A stretch of DNA of 55,644 nt from Candidatus Delongbacteria bacterium (lineage in GTDB: Bacteria; UBA4055), in NCBI GenBank assembly GCA_016937995.1, contig JAFGVM010000043.1, forward strand, positions 1 to 55,644. The letters run 5' to 3'. The translations under genes and the position numbers were made by a program. The notes beneath the pieces were generated by a model, which saw nothing but the letters and a program-made list of their open reading frames with translations, was not told the origin of the DNA and searched no databases. Shown in pieces: positions 15,096 through 48,827 of the stretch. The stretch's first letter is position 1. Each line of letters begins with the position of its first letter.

Positions 15096-16544
15096 TTAAA
15101 AACCTGCATAAATAAATGTTTGAGAATTACCTGCAAAATAAATTATTGTCATTGTAATAATTAAATATGAAAACCATCTAAAGTAAATATTTTTATTTCC
15201 AATATCCAATACATGATTTTTATTCTTTTGTAAAAACTCTAATAATAGAATAATAAGGATCAAAATCAATGGTATTGCTGTTATCTGAAATGAATTCCAG
15301 GATTGTAAGTTAAAAATATTGAATAAGATCGAATTCGCAGTTTTTAAAGAGTCAGATCTAAAAAATATCCAAACAAAATTTACAATAAAAAATGTTAAAA
15401 CACCTTCAAAGAGGACCAATACATTATTTTTATATTTTATTCCCAATTGCTTCAGTAATTTTTTTTTCTTCTTCCGGAGAGTTTTATTCAATATTAAAAG
15501 AAATGCATGTATCATACCCCATACTATAAATGTCCAGTTAGAACCATGCCATAATCCGGTTAAAGTCCATGTAATGATTATACCGATTGAATATATCATG
15601 AGGTCAGTATTGAAAACCGAGTCTTGTTTTACTTTTCTTGAAACTATAAAACTTATCGGGAGAAAAATATAATCTCTGAACCATCTTGTGAGGGAGATAT
15701 GCCATCTTTTCCAGAAATCGGCAATCGTTCTTGATAAATAAGGATATTCGAAATTTCTCTCAACAGGTATTCCCAACATTTTAGAAATACCTATAGCCAT
15801 GTTTGAATAACCGTTAAAATCAAAATATAATTGGAATGAAAAATATATTGTACCGAGTAAAACAGAATTACCGTTCATTGAACTGTAATCATTAAAAGTC
15901 CTTCCAACATGTTTTGCAAGGGAATCAGCGATCACTACTTTGGAAAACAAACCCCATAAAAATTGTCTTAATCCATCAACGACCAATGAATAATTGAATT
16001 CAATTTTATCATTTAACTGCTTTAATAAGTATCTTGGCCTATGTATTGGACCGGACATGATAATGGGAAAATAAGACAATGATACAGAATGCCTGATGAA
16101 GTTTTTTTCAAATTGGACTTGTTTTTTATAAACATCAATTATGTAGCTTAATGACAGGAATGTGTAAAAACTTATTCCTACAGGGAGAAATAATTTTAAT
16201 GTGATCAAGTTGAATTGAACTCCAAAAATATTCCCTGTATCGTTAATGCTATCAACAAAAAAGTTATAATATTTGAATATAAATAACGGTATCAGATTAA
16301 AAAATATAGCAACCCAGAATACAAGCCTTCTGTTCACATTTTTGCCTGATAAGTATTTAATAAAAAAGTAGTTTACTGCTACGACTAAAACAAGCAACAA
16401 AAAAGATCTTAGATCCCACAATGAATACAAAAGTAAATTTACAGTCAATAATAAGACATTACGTAGCTGAGCTTTTTTAATATTCCAGTAAATGAGAAAG
16501 AATACTGAAAAAAATAATAGGAACTGTATTGAGTTAAAAAGCAT
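15096..16544 (-). CDS. MBOAT family O-acyltransferase (second copy)
   Basis: This 482-residue polytopic membrane protein has FDFNGYSNMAIG, FWKRWHISLTRWFRDYIFLP and GLWHGSNWTFIVWG, with both conserved His residues of the MBOAT/AlgI family. It has the same length as the MBOAT at 8262-9710 but is clearly diverged, so the two are old paralogs or independent acquisitions. It leads its own transcript, with a promoter 34 bases upstream, followed by an SGNH protein and a putative glycosyltransferase. Its likely job is translocating an acyl group for polysaccharide decoration in the periplasm. Confidence 0.92.
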   Translation of the reverse strand: MLFNSIQFLLFFSVFFLIYWNIKKAQLRNVLLLTVNLLLYSLWDLRSFLLLVLVVAVNYFFIKYLSGKNVNRRLVFWVAIFFNLIPLFIFKYYNFFVDSINDTGNIFGVQFNLITLKLFLPVGISFYTFLSLSYIIDVYKKQVQFEKNFIRHSVSLSYFPIIMSGPIHRPRYLLKQLNDKIEFNYSLVVDGLRQFLWGLFSKVVIADSLAKHVGRTFNDYSSMNGNSVLLGTIYFSFQLYFDFNGYSNMAIGISKMLGIPVERNFEYPYLSRTIADFWKRWHISLTRWFRDYIFLPISFIVSRKVKQDSVFNTDLMIYSIGIIITWTLTGLWHGSNWTFIVWGMIHAFLLILNKTLRKKKKKLLKQLGIKYKNNVLVLFEGVLTFFIVNFVWIFFRSDSLKTANSILFNIFNLQSWNSFQITAIPLILILIILLLEFLQKNKNHVLDIGNKNIYFRWFSYLIITMTIIYFAGNSQTFIYAGF

Positions 16545-16577
16545 AATCCTTATACCTGATATATCTGATTATGTTTG

Positions 16578-16606
16578 AATATATACCCGTATTTACAAAT
16601 TATCAA
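16578..16606 (-). promoter_or_regulatory. Sigma-70-type promoter for the MBOAT2 operon
   Basis: On the minus strand, TTGATA (16606-16601), 17 bases, TATATT (16583-16578). The start codon of the MBOAT gene is at 16544, giving a short leader. Confidence 0.65.
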
Positions 16607-16626
16607 GAAATGATAAAGCAATTTTT

Positions 16627-17946
16627 TTACTTCAATGAATTTTCTGAAGTAACTCTATAAAAATATTTTTTGCTTAATGATATGTCATGATCGATATAGT
16701 TGGGTGTTAAACTTGTTCCTATTTTAATAAAATCACCAAAGGGATTTATAGATCTGTATATTCTGAACAATTCAGCTCCTTCTACATTATCCCAATTAAG
16801 ATCTACTTGAGATTCCTGGAATGATATTTCTAATCCTGCAGGCCTGGTTTTTATCAACTGAATATTATATTTGATCCACCCGTAAATAGTAAAAGCGATC
16901 TGTCGGTATCCGGAAATTACAGGATGTAAAGGATCCGTTTCTCCAAAACCTGAGAAAGTATCAATATTAACATTTATTGGTATTATTGAAATGTTTGAAT
17001 TATTCCTTGTTTTGAAATAGTCAATGTACCTTTGGCAAAGTCTGTGATGACATTTCTTTCTTTCAAAATAATCAAGTTGAGTAGTATCCGTATAAGTATA
17101 TTCTCTCACATTGACCGGAGGAGTTAATGCAATACCTATTTGCGAGTTAGGGAAAACAGCACATATTGAATCTATCAGTTTACCGGATGTGGAATCATTT
17201 AATATCTTATAGTCTATCCAGTTATCAATTGTTTCAACAGTTGTAGGATCTGCGTAAGCTAAATCATTAATACCTAGAAATATGATAATTATATCAGGTG
17301 TTTCTTTATCTAAGCTTTCATAAAAATATCTACTAATATCAAGTCCTTCCTCTTCTTCAAAAATAAATGGACTGGATAAATTATTTGCAAACCAATCCCA
17401 TGTTTTACCCCAGTAACCTTCATGAAATAATTCATTATCAATACCGTAATACGGATAACCTACATTATAGTTAGTTCCCATGAATTTTATCGGATTATTC
17501 GTACTACTATTGTAAATGTCTTTCAAGTGTTTAAGGTAAACTCCTGCATTAGTATAGCTATCACCGATTACAAGTACTTTTAAGGTGTCATTAGGATCTA
17601 TCGTGTGATCAGACACAAAAACCATACTACTGTCACACTCTGTTATTTGACCTAAAGAATCTTTTATATGAATCTCAATCTCATAAGATCCCTCATTTAG
17701 AGAATCCAGATTATACCTTATTGAATCTCTGTATCCTACATTACAACTAACTTCAAATGAGTATTTGTCGGGTAAAATTCCTGAAATTAAATTGTTAAAG
17801 TAAATTGAAAATTGTATGTCAGAAGATAAATAAATTTCATCAGGTAAGCTTAAATATAAACTATCCTGAGTATAAAGAAAAATTTTCAGTAACAAAATTA
17901 ATAATAAGGTTAATAGTCTGTATTCTTTATTCTTCAAAATTTTCAC
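16627..17946 (-). CDS. Secreted SGNH/GDSL hydrolase with C-terminal Fn3-like module
   Basis: I place the start at a GTG at 17946 (439 residues), overlapping the end of the flippase gene; the longer frame to 18003 would bury its N-terminus in that gene. An N-terminal hydrophobic stretch (about residues 9-24) serves as signal or anchor, followed by a beta-rich region. The catalytic domain shows VIGDSYT (Ser130), FLGINDLAY (Asn near 227) and DPLHP (Asp338, His341), the blocks I, III and V of GDSL esterases. Residues from about 360 form an Fn3-like module also found at the C-terminus of 19359-21959 and 48339-48827. It is probably an esterase acting on an acylated polysaccharide, which would balance the acyltransferases in the locus. 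Confidence 0.78.
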   Translation of the reverse strand: MKILKNKEYRLLTLLLILLLKIFLYTQDSLYLSLPDEIYLSSDIQFSIYFNNLISGILPDKYSFEVSCNVGYRDSIRYNLDSLNEGSYEIEIHIKDSLGQITECDSSMVFVSDHTIDPNDTLKVLVIGDSYTNAGVYLKHLKDIYNSSTNNPIKFMGTNYNVGYPYYGIDNELFHEGYWGKTWDWFANNLSSPFIFEEEEGLDISRYFYESLDKETPDIIIIFLGINDLAYADPTTVETIDNWIDYKILNDSTSGKLIDSICAVFPNSQIGIALTPPVNVREYTYTDTTQLDYFERKKCHHRLCQRYIDYFKTRNNSNISIIPINVNIDTFSGFGETDPLHPVISGYRQIAFTIYGWIKYNIQLIKTRPAGLEISFQESQVDLNWDNVEGAELFRIYRSINPFGDFIKIGTSLTPNYIDHDISLSKKYFYRVTSENSLK

Positions 17947-19207
17947 TTTTAATTTTATTGATATATATTCTGTAGTAAGTGTACAGAGATAAAGTAAATA
18001 CAAAACCTGAAAATAATTGAGTTAATGCTGCGCCGTAAGCACCCAAGATTGGAATAAGAAACACAAAACCAAGTAAGTTTGCTATTCCAACATACATTGC
18101 TCCATTCCTCAATATCTTTCCTTGCCCGTGAGCTCCTAAAAATCTGTTATAATAATTCCCGAAACCATGGAATATCTGCCCTAAAGCAACAATATATATC
18201 AAAGGTACTGCTTCAATGTATTTTTCTGAATACAGAATTAGCACCATTGATTTAGCAAATAAAATATATCCCACCAAAGATAATACGGACATTCCGATTG
18301 TTGCCCTTGTAGCTTTTAATGGAATACTTTTTCTACTGGCAAATTCTTTAAACATTGTTGTTCCAACTATATTTGGGATCATTATTAAGGGAATTGTGAC
18401 AACATTGGCTAATGAATAGTATCCAACATCAATATTAGTATCAGAAAAATAACTTAAAATAATAGGTCCAAAATGGGTTGATGCTACTCCTATCAAAGAC
18501 CCCGCATAAACATGAAGACCATAAGTTTTATTTTCATTAAGAATAATTTTTACATTCTCTTTAATCTTAATAAATTTTGGCTTCATCTGTATTGAAAGTA
18601 GTATCACAATTACTGAAAAAGTTATTAATTCAGCAGAAGTAGCTGATACAACACTCAAATAATCAAACTTATTAAGCATAAGCAGAGATAAAACATATAA
18701 GACAGGTGGAACCTGACGGAATATTGCCAGCTGATAAATTTTATTATCACCTTGAAATAGATATTCAAAACTCATTTTAAACGGTATTATAAACATCAGT
18801 GGTGCTAGCAGAATAAATACATGTTTAAGATCTTTTGGAAAAAAATAGCTTTGGAAATAAGCAAAAATAATTATTGACAGCAAGAACAATATCCCAAGCA
18901 CACTCGTAATTATAATAGAACTTCCTATCAATTCTTTTCTGATTTTTTGATTTGATTTATCTGCAAGTAATCTTCCTGCAGAAACAGAGAGTCCAAAACT
19001 AATTATTAAAGAAAAAAAAGAATAAACACTGTGTATAAATTTATAATCCCCGTAATTCTCTGGTCCTAAAAATCTTGTTGTAATAACACTGGTAAACAAA
19101 CCAATGAATATTCCAATAATAGTCGATGAGTATAAGACACTTATTTGTTTTATTTTTTTCTTCTTAAATAGATTTGTAATAAAAGTTTTTATTTTAATTC
19201 TTTTCAC
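17927..19207 (-). CDS. Oligosaccharide flippase (Wzx-like, MOP superfamily)
   Basis: This 426-residue protein has about 12 predicted membrane helices. A typical N-terminus, VLYSSTIIGIFIGLFTSVITT, precedes RFLGPENYGDYKFI, the polysaccharide-transporter signature. It flips undecaprenyl-linked repeat units across the inner membrane in a Wzx/Wzy pathway; the Wzy-like polymerase is at 22749-24218. The start codon is GTG, with little ribosome-site complementarity. It is the first gene of a minus-strand unit behind a strong promoter, and its 3' end overlaps the GDSL hydrolase start. Confidence 0.87.
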   Translation of the reverse strand: MKRIKIKTFITNLFKKKKIKQISVLYSSTIIGIFIGLFTSVITTRFLGPENYGDYKFIHSVYSFFSLIISFGLSVSAGRLLADKSNQKIRKELIGSSIIITSVLGILFLLSIIIFAYFQSYFFPKDLKHVFILLAPLMFIIPFKMSFEYLFQGDNKIYQLAIFRQVPPVLYVLSLLMLNKFDYLSVVSATSAELITFSVIVILLSIQMKPKFIKIKENVKIILNENKTYGLHVYAGSLIGVASTHFGPIILSYFSDTNIDVGYYSLANVVTIPLIMIPNIVGTTMFKEFASRKSIPLKATRATIGMSVLSLVGYILFAKSMVLILYSEKYIEAVPLIYIVALGQIFHGFGNYYNRFLGAHGQGKILRNGAMYVGIANLLGFVFLIPILGAYGAALTQLFSGFVFTLSLYTYYRIYINKIKSENFEE

Positions 19208-19236
19208 CTTAGGTTGATTTCATCATTCAGGTTAAA

Positions 19237-19265
19237 AATATACTTGGTTTTTAAGAAGTTGTCAA
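19237..19265 (-). promoter_or_regulatory. Sigma-70-type promoter for the flippase transcript
   Basis: On the minus strand, TTGACA (19265-19260), 17 bases, TATATT (19242-19237). It is one half of a divergent promoter pair in the 151-base gap. Confidence 0.75.
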
Positions 19266-19300
19266 GATAGATAAAGGAACCTGAAACAAACATTTTTTTA

Positions 19301-19329
19301 TTGACTAAACTGCTTAAGGTCCATATAAT
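19301..19329 (+). promoter_or_regulatory. Sigma-70-type promoter for the beta-helix surface protein
   Basis: TTGACT (19301-19306), 17 bases, then a perfect TATAAT (19324-19329). The gene's GTG start follows 29 bases later, with AACAGGAG as ribosome site. Confidence 0.78.
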
Positions 19330-19358
19330 TGTAATTTAAAGTAACAGGAGTAATACCA

Positions 19359-21959
19359 GTGGAAAAAAGTTTATTTGCAGCTATATTATTAGGTGTTTTA
19401 AGTATTTTTGCAGAGAGTACAAATAATTTATTTGTGGCTAATATTGATTCAACTCTATACATCGCAACAAAGTATAATGGGAACTATGATCTTATTACAA
19501 CTTGGGACAATTGCATGGCTAATGACCTGTATACTTTCAGAACTGTGGCATTATATACAAATTCAGAAGATCATGTAAGCGAAGATGTAACAAGAACATA
19601 TTATGAGCCTATTTTAAGAGCTATAACAACTGATAATATCGGACCTATTGCATTCAATGGGGATTTTGCAGGAGGAAATCACACATATACAGATTCTCTA
19701 TCAAATACATACAAAACAGCAAAAACAACAAAGATCGAAATTTATATAAACGATGAAATTATAACTGGAAATTTTTCAACCTATACAGATGAAGTGATTA
19801 TAAAAGTATCAAATGACATTTACAATCCAATTGAACTTCCTGTTGAGAATGTGTACATAAACGAAAATATCGAATATCGAGTTTTTGATAAGTCAATCGA
19901 AGTAAAAGTTGAACATGTAATTAAACACGATCTATATGTTAATAGTTATTACGGGATGCAGGCAGCAAATAACGCTGATATGCAAAAATATATATCCATG
20001 ATTAATAGCCAATACACATCTCAACAAATAATGTCAAGTGGACTTACTGCAGGAATTATTTCCGATTATCCGAACTGCTATAAAGCAATTCACTTCAATA
20101 ATGATAGTACTGTATGCCAGGAATTATTCATGTATCCCGATGAAGGATTATTTTCCAATAAGGAAAGTTATATAAGCCCAACTACATATTATTCAAGTAT
20201 TTTTGTTGGTGGTGGAACAGTACCTTTGCTCAAAACATACTTTAATCAGATAAGAAATAAAAATATGACCGCTGGAGATTCTTATTATTGGAAAGGTGTT
20301 TATAGTTGGTTTGATAATAATGAACTGAATACATATTATGTAAAAACTGACGGAAAAGACGAAGACACTGGACGATCTTGGGCTTCAGCTTTTGCTTCAT
20401 ATCAAAAAGCATATGACTCAGCAAGATCAGGTGAGCAGGTTTGGATTGCTGAGGGTACTTATAAACCAACTTTTGATTTCGAATTAGACTTGGGAGAAAA
20501 AGGGAAGCATTTCAAATTAAAAAACGGCGTAAAGTTTTATGGGGGATTCTCAGGTACTGAAACAAGCATTTTAGAAAGAAATTACAACATTTATAAAACC
20601 ATATTAAGCGGAGATATAGGTATTGCCAATGACAGTACTGATAATGTATACCATGTTTTCTATCATCCTGCAGGAACAGATTTGGATTCTACCGCTGTTA
20701 TAGACGGTTTTGTTATTACTAAAGGTGCAGCAAGTGCTCCAGAGGGTGATTATAGATTTGGTGCAGGAATTTTTAATTGGACTTCCAGCCCTACTATTAT
20801 TAATTGTGATTTTATCGAAAACTATTCAAATGGATATCTCGGTGGCGGTGGTGCTATGTATAACAATGTTCAGAGCAATCCCAAGATTACAAATTGTTAT
20901 TTTTTTAGAAATTTTGCAGCACATGATGGAGCTGGGATATTCAACATTGGAAGTTCTCCAATACTTACAAATTGTACATTTGCAGAAAATTATTGTGAGT
21001 TTGGAACAGTTTTTAATAATAACAATAGCAATGGAACATATACTAACTGTTTATGGGAAAATAATACTGTTACAGCAGGTGGTGGTGGTGTAATGAACTG
21101 GAACAGCAGTGCAACAATTGACAGATGTAAAATTATTAATAATCAGGCTTTGGGTTCATGTGGTGGGGGGATTTGGAATCAGGGAGCTTCTTCTTCACCT
21201 GTCATTACAAATACTCTTGTTGCAGATAATTACCTTACAAGTGAGTTATACGGCTGGGGCGGTGGGATTTATAACTACGATCAATGTAGTCCAACAATTA
21301 CAAACTGTACTATTGTTAATAATTATTCAAACAACCTTGGTGGTGGATTATTTATAAGAACATCTGATGTTGCTGTAGAAAACTGTATAATCTACAATAA
21401 TGATGCAGGAAATACTGGAGATGATATTTATGTTTATTCAGGAACTTCTTCCAATATTTACAATTCGTGCTATTCAAATTTAACGAATGATGTTTATGGA
21501 GATCTTACCCCTATCAATTGTATTACAAGTGATCCAATTTTCAAAAATATCGGGGATGATCCTTATTCAATAGCTTCAGATTCTCCATGTATTGATACTG
21601 GGGATAATTCATTTGTAAATACAAATCTGGATGTTATTGGTAATATCAGAATTATTGATGGAGACTTGAACACTATAGAGATAATTGATATGGGAGCTTA
21701 TGAAGCAAATACCTTCAGTTCTCCGGAAAATATCACAATAAATTATTCAGGGTCATATATAACAATTTCTTGGGACGAAGTTGCAAGTGCTAATTCTTAC
21801 GATATTTACTCTTCTGATAATCCATATGATTCATTTTCAAGAGTAGCTATTATTACAACAAATAGCTATGTAACAAACATATCATCGTCAAAACAGTTCT
21901 ACTACATAATTGCAAATACAAACGAGATAAAATCAATAAAACAATCTAGTTTGAAATAA
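19359..21959 (+). CDS. Secreted right-handed parallel beta-helix protein with C-terminal Fn3-like module
   Basis: This 866-residue protein starts at GTG with an AACAGGAG site. Residues 1-19 are a signal peptide. Residues 20-320 form a domain I do not recognise. Near residue 326, YYVKTDGKDEDTGRSWASAF opens a polymorphic-outer-membrane-type beta-helix region; from about 450 to 760 come repeated turns of the kind GGGIxNxxSSPxITNC, as in pectate-lyase-like and choice-of-anchor Q proteins. The last 80 residues form an Fn3-like module shared with two other proteins here. There is no T9SS sorting tail. It is the only plus-strand gene inside the polysaccharide locus, has its own promoter, and a solo IS-end-like sequence follows its stop by 38 bases. 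Surface binding or polysaccharide modification is possible; no catalytic residues are evident. Confidence 0.75.
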   Translation: MEKSLFAAILLGVLSIFAESTNNLFVANIDSTLYIATKYNGNYDLITTWDNCMANDLYTFRTVALYTNSEDHVSEDVTRTYYEPILRAITTDNIGPIAFNGDFAGGNHTYTDSLSNTYKTAKTTKIEIYINDEIITGNFSTYTDEVIIKVSNDIYNPIELPVENVYINENIEYRVFDKSIEVKVEHVIKHDLYVNSYYGMQAANNADMQKYISMINSQYTSQQIMSSGLTAGIISDYPNCYKAIHFNNDSTVCQELFMYPDEGLFSNKESYISPTTYYSSIFVGGGTVPLLKTYFNQIRNKNMTAGDSYYWKGVYSWFDNNELNTYYVKTDGKDEDTGRSWASAFASYQKAYDSARSGEQVWIAEGTYKPTFDFELDLGEKGKHFKLKNGVKFYGGFSGTETSILERNYNIYKTILSGDIGIANDSTDNVYHVFYHPAGTDLDSTAVIDGFVITKGAASAPEGDYRFGAGIFNWTSSPTIINCDFIENYSNGYLGGGGAMYNNVQSNPKITNCYFFRNFAAHDGAGIFNIGSSPILTNCTFAENYCEFGTVFNNNNSNGTYTNCLWENNTVTAGGGGVMNWNSSATIDRCKIINNQALGSCGGGIWNQGASSSPVITNTLVADNYLTSELYGWGGGIYNYDQCSPTITNCTIVNNYSNNLGGGLFIRTSDVAVENCIIYNNDAGNTGDDIYVYSGTSSNIYNSCYSNLTNDVYGDLTPINCITSDPIFKNIGDDPYSIASDSPCIDTGDNSFVNTNLDVIGNIRIIDGDLNTIEIIDMGAYEANTFSSPENITINYSGSYITISWDEVASANSYDIYSSDNPYDSFSRVAIITTNSYVTNISSSKQFYYIIANTNEIKSIKQSSLK

Positions 21960-42729: not shown

Positions 42730-44034
42730 TTACTTGATCAGCAACATCTTCCTACTCAACACCTCTCCATTCGCTTCTAATTTATAAATATATTCTCCAC
42801 TGATATAACTTTCAGCATTGAATTCTATATTATGAATACCTTTATCCATTTTCCCATTGATCAATTCATTTACCAACTGACCTTCAATATTATAAACTGA
42901 AAGTTTAACATAATCTGATTGAGGAATTGAAAAACTTATCGAAGTGGTTGGATTGAAAGGATTTGGGTAATTTTGGTGTAGTGTAATCTCTGCTGGAAGG
43001 TTCATATCATCAATTGAATTAGTTACTACCTGTATAGGTTCCCCACTTCCTGGAATAATAGTCTCAAAACCTCTGTAAACTGGAGCTGAGTTATATGTTA
43101 GAAAAAAACTGCTGTGAACTTTCTCCTTGGTCGGATAATGAAAATATATGTTTAACTCTTCACCGGGTGTCCAATTTGTATAAAAATTTGCAAGGTTAAT
43201 ATAAACTACTGAATTACCGTTGACCATACTTTTCCCGCATCCAACATCATTAGATGTAAGCAAGTCATCATCTCTCCCAGTTATCCATGCTTCAAAATTG
43301 ACATCATCATACTGAAAATTTAGTTCTGAACCATTTTCATTCTGAATATGCCAGTAAACGACCCTTGGAATGCTGTATAAACGCTTTTCATTACTTGTTT
43401 TACTATTCATATGAGTATCGGATATATTTTTTATTTGGTTCGGCCAAGTAGTATTTTCTTCTATTACAAGAACTAAAGGCTGCCCTACTTCTACATCAAA
43501 TACAACAAGCCAGAATGTTGAACTTGTTGAAGTTAACCAAACCTGATTACTACTGAATTTCATAAAAGTATTACAAGGAATTTCGCTCGATAAAGAATAA
43601 GTAGATTTCATTTGCTGACCAAGTGGATAAACGATCGGATTATATGCAGCAAGACCATTATTAACCAGATCATAAACCACATCAACACTGTCACCGGTCA
43701 CTGTAAAATCAAAATCATTTACAGCATTGATCATGTATGCTCCTCCTGTCTCAACAGGGAAGTCTGTACCCCATCCCAGTACTGAATGGAAACCTGCTGT
43801 TTCCCATCCCAGCAATTCCGTGTTCCACTTACTTACAGCATTTAAATTTGTACCTGTAAGATCAAAATCTGAAGCCATTGTCCATCCTGTCTCTAATGGT
43901 AAACCCACAAAATTCAGATCATATGGCTCTGTTGATGTACAAGGATAAACAAAAGTAGAATCATTCTGACGAATTACATTCTGTGAAAATGCGAGTGAAA
44001 CCACGATTATCAATAATAACATACACTTCTTCAT
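42730..44034 (-). CDS. Secreted protein with T9SS type A sorting domain
   Basis: Read from MKKCMLLLI (44034), the protein has 434 residues. A GGAGGAAG ribosome site precedes this ATG, and the promoter's -10 box lies inside the longer frame to 44121, ruling that start out. It has a signal peptide (about 1-18). The N-terminal half has repeats of the kind LPLETGWTMASDFDLTGTN and VDVVYDLVNNGLAAYNP, seen in FCB-group surface proteins. The last 85 residues start with NYPNPFNPTTSISFSIP and end GEYIYKLEANGEVLSRKML, the T9SS type A C-terminal sorting signal. It is exported across the outer membrane and anchored or released. No T9SS machinery genes are in the window. Function of the cargo part is unknown. 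Confidence 0.85.
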   Translation of the reverse strand: MKKCMLLLIIVVSLAFSQNVIRQNDSTFVYPCTSTEPYDLNFVGLPLETGWTMASDFDLTGTNLNAVSKWNTELLGWETAGFHSVLGWGTDFPVETGGAYMINAVNDFDFTVTGDSVDVVYDLVNNGLAAYNPIVYPLGQQMKSTYSLSSEIPCNTFMKFSSNQVWLTSTSSTFWLVVFDVEVGQPLVLVIEENTTWPNQIKNISDTHMNSKTSNEKRLYSIPRVVYWHIQNENGSELNFQYDDVNFEAWITGRDDDLLTSNDVGCGKSMVNGNSVVYINLANFYTNWTPGEELNIYFHYPTKEKVHSSFFLTYNSAPVYRGFETIIPGSGEPIQVVTNSIDDMNLPAEITLHQNYPNPFNPTTSISFSIPQSDYVKLSVYNIEGQLVNELINGKMDKGIHNIEFNAESYISGEYIYKLEANGEVLSRKMLLIK

Positions 44035-44076
44035 AACTTCCTCCAATATTCCCAACACATAAATTCTTCTTTCTTC

Positions 44077-44105
44077 AATATAGCGCATAATTAGTGAGAA
44101 AGCAA
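44077..44105 (-). promoter_or_regulatory. Sigma-70-type promoter for the T9SS-exported protein
   Basis: On the minus strand, TTGCTT (44105-44100), 17 bases, TATATT (44082-44077). It decides the start codon of the gene at 44034. Confidence 0.65.
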
Positions 44106-44228
44106 AAAAAATAAAATACATTTTCTGGGATACCTTTGGATTCCAAAAAAAAACGCATCCGGGGACAGGGGACTTCAGTCCCTTGGGATGTGTGAGGAAT
44201 AAAACATAAAAAGAGGAGACGACAGGAA

Positions 44229-48138: not shown

Positions 48139-48827
48139 ATGATGAAAGTTCTTTCTTTTAAGCTGCTAATAGTCATTCTCTTTATTTTTTCAACATCACT
48201 TTGGAGTGATCATAAAAGCGATCTGGAAGAAGCATTGAAATATTATCCATTAAATACTGGTGATGTCAGAAAAGGGCGTGTAAATAATTTTGTGTAAACG
48301 GTCTGCAACCATTAACTTCTATCAAAGGAGGAACAGACAATGAAACTCCTCAAAATGGATTATCTTATAACATTTATATAGGTACTCAAAGTCAATCTGC
48401 AGATATTTTAGATCCAATGAGTGATACTCATACAGGTTACAGAAAAATAGTAGATATTGGCAACGTAAATCAAAACACAACATGGACAATTAAGAATCTT
48501 CCTTATGGTGAATACTACTGGAGTGTTCAAGCCATAGATCACAATTATACAGGATCAGAATTTGCAAAAGAACAGCTTGTATGGCATACTGACGCTCCAC
48601 AAAATTTAAGAATTTTACGGGATGAAGATCATTTGAATATTTTCTGGAATTCAAAAGCAGATGCAACAAGCTATTCAATATACTCATCTGATGATCCATA
48701 CGCACAATTCCCCGAAGATTGGACTTTAGAAGCAAATAATATTATAACTACATTATGGAGTGATTATAAAATAAGACCTAATAAAAAATTCTATCGTGTT
48801 GTTGCTGTAAGTGACGATAAGAAATAA
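48139..48827 (+). pseudogene. Secreted Fn3-domain protein, disrupted by an IS end and internal deletion
   Basis: The 5' piece (48139-48269) encodes a signal peptide, MMKVLSFKLLIVILFIFS, and the start of a mature protein (SDHKSDLEEALKYYPLN). At 48270 it runs into the IS-end sequence, where the frame soon stops (TAA, 48295-48297). The 3' piece resumes at 48339 with NETPQNGLSYNIYIGTQ, then DTHTGYRKIVDIGN and NLPYGEYYWSVQAIDH, a domain typical of FG-GAP-repeat surface proteins. It ends in the same Fn3-like C-terminal module as 19359-21959 (SYSIYSSDDPYAQF, KKFYRVVAV). An Met at 48417 could start a 136-residue remnant, but that would lack a signal peptide. The original protein was surely much longer; the middle has been lost. 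Confidence 0.75.
48270..48338 (+). mobile_element. Orphan 69-bp IS 5' end inside the pseudogene
   Basis: It is the inverted copy of positions 27-95 with a single mismatch (C for T in GGGCGTGT). It includes the terminal repeat, leader and ribosome site but stops where the transposase start codon should be; the transposase and the other IS end are gone. A deletion with one end inside the IS explains the structure. Confidence 0.7.

Follow-up and report, generated by a model that had tools for sequence, protein, structure and literature searches.

An Fn3-like C-terminal module found instead of the type A tail in secreted proteins of Candidatus Delongbacteria, probably a further class of T9SS sorting domain

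Three classes of C-terminal tails, A, B, and C, are known for the T9SS, and it is described as an open question of the field how a single translocon can take tails that are unrelated to each other (PMC10202324). The type A tail (PF18962 / TIGR04183) is a seven-stranded, Ig-like 3+4 sandwich, the last strand of which matters for export, and tails of one species can be incompatible with another species (PMC11285876). Type B (PF13585 / TIGR04131) is a second, unrelated tail class of the same system, likewise the status that is proposed here for an additional module, and its export is reported to need a stretch longer than 200 residues, while the tails of the third class, type C (ChiA type, cl41395), have a length of about 100 residues (PMC10202324). 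The existence of a T9SS in Cloacimonadota has already been suggested (PMC11285876). The module that is described below shares with the type A tail the C-terminal position, the length of about 75 residues, the beta sandwich (by prediction), a cargo that is mostly predicted to be Sec-exported, and the passenger families, and both are interchangeable on homologous passengers. Another C-terminal module on secreted enzymes is the Fibrobacter basic terminal domain, which can be likened to the module by its description alone. A literature search, with most subscription journals outside its reach, retrieved no description of an Fn3-type T9SS tail. As types A, B, and C are already known, the module would add one more class to an established kind of signal.

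The window, i.e., the whole stretch of DNA that was analyzed, comprises positions 1-55,644 of contig JAFGVM010000043.1 of Candidatus Delongbacteria bacterium GCA_016937995.1, the 2.75 Mb genome of which is called G000 in the following. Three of its encoded C-termini can be aligned over about 75 residues and have 12 invariant columns out of 90, and thus the common Fn3-like C-terminus noticed in the initial annotation is real, including its coordinates. All three copies are found with a profile made from them. Copy 1 (16630-16857, minus strand; E value of 2e-38 by construction, and 79.5 bits with the profile A2 introduced below) forms the C-terminus of a secreted GDSL-type hydrolase (16627-17946, minus strand, ATG at 17946 and stop at 16627; PF00657 above the cut-off), and the protein end is also the end of the module. 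Copy 2 (21711-21932, plus strand) belongs to a beta-helix protein that has a predicted signal peptide (19359-21959, plus strand) and eight residues between the module and the C-terminus. Copy 3 (48579-48824, plus strand) is the end of a broken gene, the remaining open frame of which (48288-48827, plus strand) stops at the module. An 80-residue alignment with 56% identity links this remnant to an internal region of an FG-GAP protein of 1422 residues encoded on contig C66 of G000, and the C-terminus of that protein is itself a module. With copy 1 as the reference, the identities of copies 2 and 3 are 29 and 25%, respectively. No Pfam T9SS tail was detected in any of the three proteins at E <= 1, as had been claimed before; as a contrast, one other protein of the window (42730-44121, minus strand) ends in a type A T9SS tail (42745-42969).

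The first profile, built from the three window copies only, was searched against G000 and had 42 matching places, 40 of them with E <= 4e-5. Matches outside of the window numbered 37 (E <= 3.6e-5), and therefore the likeness of the three copies is beyond chance. A second profile, A2, was built from 34 G000 cores and yielded 43 matches in this genome (E <= 1e-5), i.e., 40 in frames that could be read to the stop codon, two fragments at contig ends, and one inner Fn3 domain (C14:49789) in a protein that also ends in a module. The two fragments (G000:C3:11188-11286 and G000:C97:2-100) have equal scores and likely are either parts of one split gene or repeats at which the assembly stopped.

The rough consensus of the module is P.NV......L.I.WD.....AT.Y.VYSSDDPYG.F........TN.YT......K.FYYIVA.N-stop, and a lysine just before the last strand is present in at least 90% of the profile rows. 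In a set of 139 copies, which includes some duplicates, the last residue is a lysine in 59 and an asparagine in 39 cases, and fewer than eight residues follow strand F in 98 cases. An AlphaFold2 model of copy 2 (mean pLDDT of 83; block means of 92-97 for the core, residues 11-70) has six strands and nothing strand-like after strand F. The nearest solved folds are Fn3 domains, namely 7jgu (Z 8.9, rmsd 2.3, 72 aligned residues) and 3mpc (Z 8.7, rmsd 2.4, 73 aligned residues), the latter being also a sequence match with an E value of 1.6e-9, and no T9SS tail structure is among the 50 best structure matches listed. Both structural matches end early, at residue 78 of 90 for 7jgu and at residue 80 of 96 for 3mpc, and therefore the last part of a normal Fn3 domain has no counterpart in the module. 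The module is thus predicted to be an Fn3 fold of six strands that lacks strand G, in contrast to the seven strands of the type A tail. A contribution of strand G by longer C-terminal tails was also considered, but a copy with an 18-residue tail was again modeled with six strands. Compared to Fn3 domains in general (PF00041), with which it has the fold in common, the module differs by the strand G missing from the model and by its restriction to the C-terminus.

Searches with established families did not recognize the module. PF00041 matched only two of the 34 cores at E <= 0.01, and at the same threshold no core was matched by PF18962 (type A), by PF13585 (type B), or by any other Pfam tail family. 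The NCBIfam tail models, which presumably include one for type C (ChiA-type) tails, had no match among the 34 cores at E <= 0.1. A diverged type A tail was rejected as an explanation by an hhalign comparison with the local type A tails, which gave a probability of 1.2%.

A scan of named genomes revealed the module in Candidatus Delongbacteria / UBP11 and in one Candidatus Cloacimonas. A set of 13 Delongbacteria genomes (G000 to G012, G000 included) was therein compared for modules and type A tails, and the numbers of module matches and type A tails, respectively, were 43 and 57 in G000, 0 and 61 in G001, 2 and 139 in G002, 17 and 31 in G003, 10 and 15 in G004, 57 and 54 in G005, 28 and 39 in G006, 17 and 18 in G007, 22 and 42 in G008, 71 and 29 in G009, 16 and 24 in G010, 56 and 63 in G011, and 29 and 43 in G012. 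The two matches in G002 (L090 and L102) are ordinary inner Fn3 domains, and this genome has no true module. In Cloacimonadota, 78 of 98 genomes contain a module match (E <= 1e-6), and type A tails are present in every Delongbacteria and Cloacimonadota genome examined, so that neither group offers a T9SS-free genome as a negative control. The module is thus more widespread than the initial annotation had claimed. If it is an export signal, the predicted secretomes of both groups would grow; G000, for example, has about 40 modules, which current tail models miss, in addition to its 57 type A tails.

The position of the module was analyzed with 178 distinct copies (40 from G000, 57 from other Delongbacteria, and 81 from Cloacimonadota), which were de-duplicated and read to the stop codon; the sample is non-random and consists of the best copies of many genomes together with 40 hand-picked, lower-scoring Cloacimonadota stretches. 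The distance to the stop codon is at most 60 residues for 172 copies, at most 25 residues for 161 copies, and at most five residues for 112 copies. Like T9SS signals, the module is thus located at the very C-terminus, in nearly all cases, and the matches are neither mostly internal nor a mere generic Fn3 similarity, either of which would have refuted the initial annotation. In G000, all 40 readable terminal copies are within 41 residues of the protein end, and 24 of them within five. Six of the 178 copies are not terminal, i.e., L090, L197, and four copies in L204 and L234. L090 is the inner, ordinary Fn3 domain of a type A-tailed protein of G002 and the only frame with matches to both the module and the type A tail. 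In L204 and L234, from two Cloacimonadota genomes, an ice-binding domain follows the module (a PF11999 match in L204, assigned by sequence likeness in L234), and this is the sole exception from the C-terminal position that occurs repeatedly. Generic Fn3 similarity was rejected as an explanation also because A2 catches few inner Fn3 domains, and those with weak scores.

The passengers are diverse. The 40 module frames of G000 matched 58 Pfam families, and they include C10 and C25 peptidases, M14, PAD_porph, amidase 3, endonuclease I, arylsulfotransferase, GLUG, and beta-helix proteins. C25 and PAD_porph proteins are known kinds of T9SS cargo. Signal peptides were predicted with two rough rules. 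The strict rule was passed by 25 of 36 module frames, 27 of 34 type A frames, and 50 of 137 other frames, and a lenient rule, which half of the other frames pass (69 of 138), by 30 of 36 module frames. The recurrence of the module at the end of unrelated passengers, most of which carry signal peptides by these rough rules, is thus borne out. Modules can be up to 88% identical on passengers without detectable mutual similarity, which suggests a cassette-like mobility of the module. On the G000 contigs C14, C83, C12, and C6 the modules are 74-88% identical and the passengers partly have no similarity at all, which suggests a recent cassette exchange or gene conversion.

The module substitutes for the type A tail on homologous passengers. 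Contig C64 of G000 contains four neighboring paralogs on the same strand, the tails of which are, by coordinate, type A, module, module, and type A. The four proteins are 39-55% identical up to the tail junction, and one of them (a frame of 641 residues) seems to lack its N-terminus. For 17 of the 122 distinct module passengers in the stretches that were fetched, there is a type A-tailed relative with similarity up to both junctions, and there is no case of a terminal module and a type A tail in the same frame, so that the module indeed excludes this T9SS tail. A census of the C25 (gingipain) family was performed irrespective of the tail and comprised all 103 C25 places in G000 to G012, which were read to the stop codon. 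A type A tail was found in 48 cases, the module in 29 cases, both in none, 19 frames run off the contig or the stretch, and seven are different. Three of these seven are PorU-like, and their last 90 residues resemble a type A tail by eye without a match to the local type A profile; in two, an assembly gap (unresolved base) is located near the end of the reading; one (L325, G010:C236) is interrupted by one in-frame stop, beyond which this frame continues to a module; and one (L333, G010:C61) has an in-frame stop followed by the contig end. The latter two represent broken genes, sequencing errors, or readthrough. As all seven places are accounted for, no intact tail-less C25 protein was seen.

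A tree of the C25 catalytic domains of G000 to G012 (79 rows, 72 of them labeled; a quick method, with some long branches flagged) contains six changes of the tail type, all six forced by starred, i.e., well-supported, branches, compared to a mean of 21.3 changes after label shuffling. Switches are also found inside of tight clades, e.g., where type A tails of G008 and G010 stand beside modules of G005 and G009. In the two genomes without true modules, relatives of module-tailed C25 proteins have type A tails; these are present on all eight readable C25 proteins of G001 and on 14 of 15 of G002, the remaining one being PorU. Such tail swaps, in which the same kind of enzyme ends in either tail and the two versions are in some cases neighbors on a contig, are natural matched pairs for the analysis of what SprA and PorV read.

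Components of the T9SS are found in most genomes of both groups. PorU-like matches are present in all 13 Delongbacteria genomes (above the cut-off in eight), and so are members of the PorV family, with 3-13 matches per genome. A special shuttle might be reflected in how many PorV-family proteins a genome has, but this idea was discarded, as their number is by eye unrelated to the number of modules. SprA was found in 94 of 98 Cloacimonadota genomes, above the cut-off in 90. No SprA match was obtained in G088, G096, G098, and G101, although modules and type A tails are present; either these assemblies are incomplete or the translocon is very different.

The module is nearly always the last domain, it is present on many kinds of exported enzymes, it never occurs together with a type A tail, and it replaces this tail repeatedly. 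Because of these sequence patterns it is probably an equivalent sorting signal, that is, a further, Fn3-type class of T9SS C-terminal sorting domain. The cargo would carry a Sec signal peptide and would terminate with the domain of about 75 residues. Following passage through Sec, the translocon SprA and a shuttle of the PorV family would recognize this domain instead of a type A tail, and the domain would take the protein across the outer membrane, where the protein would be released or retained at the surface. The T9SS assignment, the role as export signal, the identity of the binding shuttle, and cleavage are what we infer here. PorV loops are described as holding the type A domain in SprA through contacts that are, apart from one conserved lysine, poorly conserved (PMC10994853), and therefore an unrelated sandwich might be accepted as well. 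The lysine before the last strand of the module is a parallel to the conserved lysine of the type A domain and no more than that. A doubtful extension of the model would be that strand F, in an Fn3 domain without strand G, is an open edge that is completed by strand pairing with SprA or a PorV-type protein, so that an incomplete Ig fold would be the export handle.

Other explanations have to be weighed against a sorting domain. The module could act only once export is completed, as a surface anchor or docking domain, i.e., the proteins would use another signal or exit route and the Fn3 domain would then attach to a polymer at the surface or to a partner in the outer membrane. Partner binding is common among Fn3 and Ig-like domains, and the fold of the module is clearly Fn3. 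However, the anchoring of type A cargo is described to run through the tail and PorU (PMC8545088), and therefore a plain anchor would be expected alongside a type A tail; as the module replaces this tail and does not supplement it, and none of the 77 tailed C25 proteins carries both, such an anchor is unlikely. The proposal of a sorting or attachment signal in the initial annotation holds insofar as the module behaves as an alternative to the type A tail, but sorting and later anchoring are not fully separable from the sequence. Its other proposal, a glycan-binding module for the polymer made locally, has to be given up as the main explanation, because copies are spread over the genome and over two phyla, and their passengers include proteases, nucleases, amidases, and many other kinds of proteins.

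The cassette-like shuffling, with modules that are up to 88% identical on dissimilar passengers, would also fit to a plain stabilizing or capping Fn3 domain, which is shuffled among secreted proteins and is terminal by chance. Such a domain should often be internal, yet 172 of 178 copies are terminal, and homologs without the module end in a type A tail instead of being bare, which makes this explanation very improbable. Even less credible is a signal of a separate outer-membrane export route in parallel to the T9SS. That the module is unrelated in sequence to the type A tails (hhalign 1.2%) is in favor of it, and so is the independent variation of the numbers, e.g., 71 modules and 29 type A tails in G009 versus none and 61 in G001. 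But close paralogs and orthologs switch their tails, which is simplest if one machine serves both, and the T9SS is described as already accepting the tail classes A, B, and C (PMC10202324).

Two additional observations concern single loci. In frames of 630-642 residues (G008:C10, G009:C84, G009:C44, and G011:C437) two PorV-family domains are arranged in tandem, which seem to correspond to two adjacent genes in other genomes, e.g., at G000:C78:13224-15028. A fused double PorV shuttle would be unusual; it occurs also in module-free genomes and is thus not module-specific. In the window (15096-19207, minus strand), there is an overlap between the GDSL hydrolase gene and the end of a flippase-like gene, and an MBOAT-like gene comes after the hydrolase gene, both neighbors being named by eye; the hydrolase is perhaps a secreted deacetylase of the local polymer.
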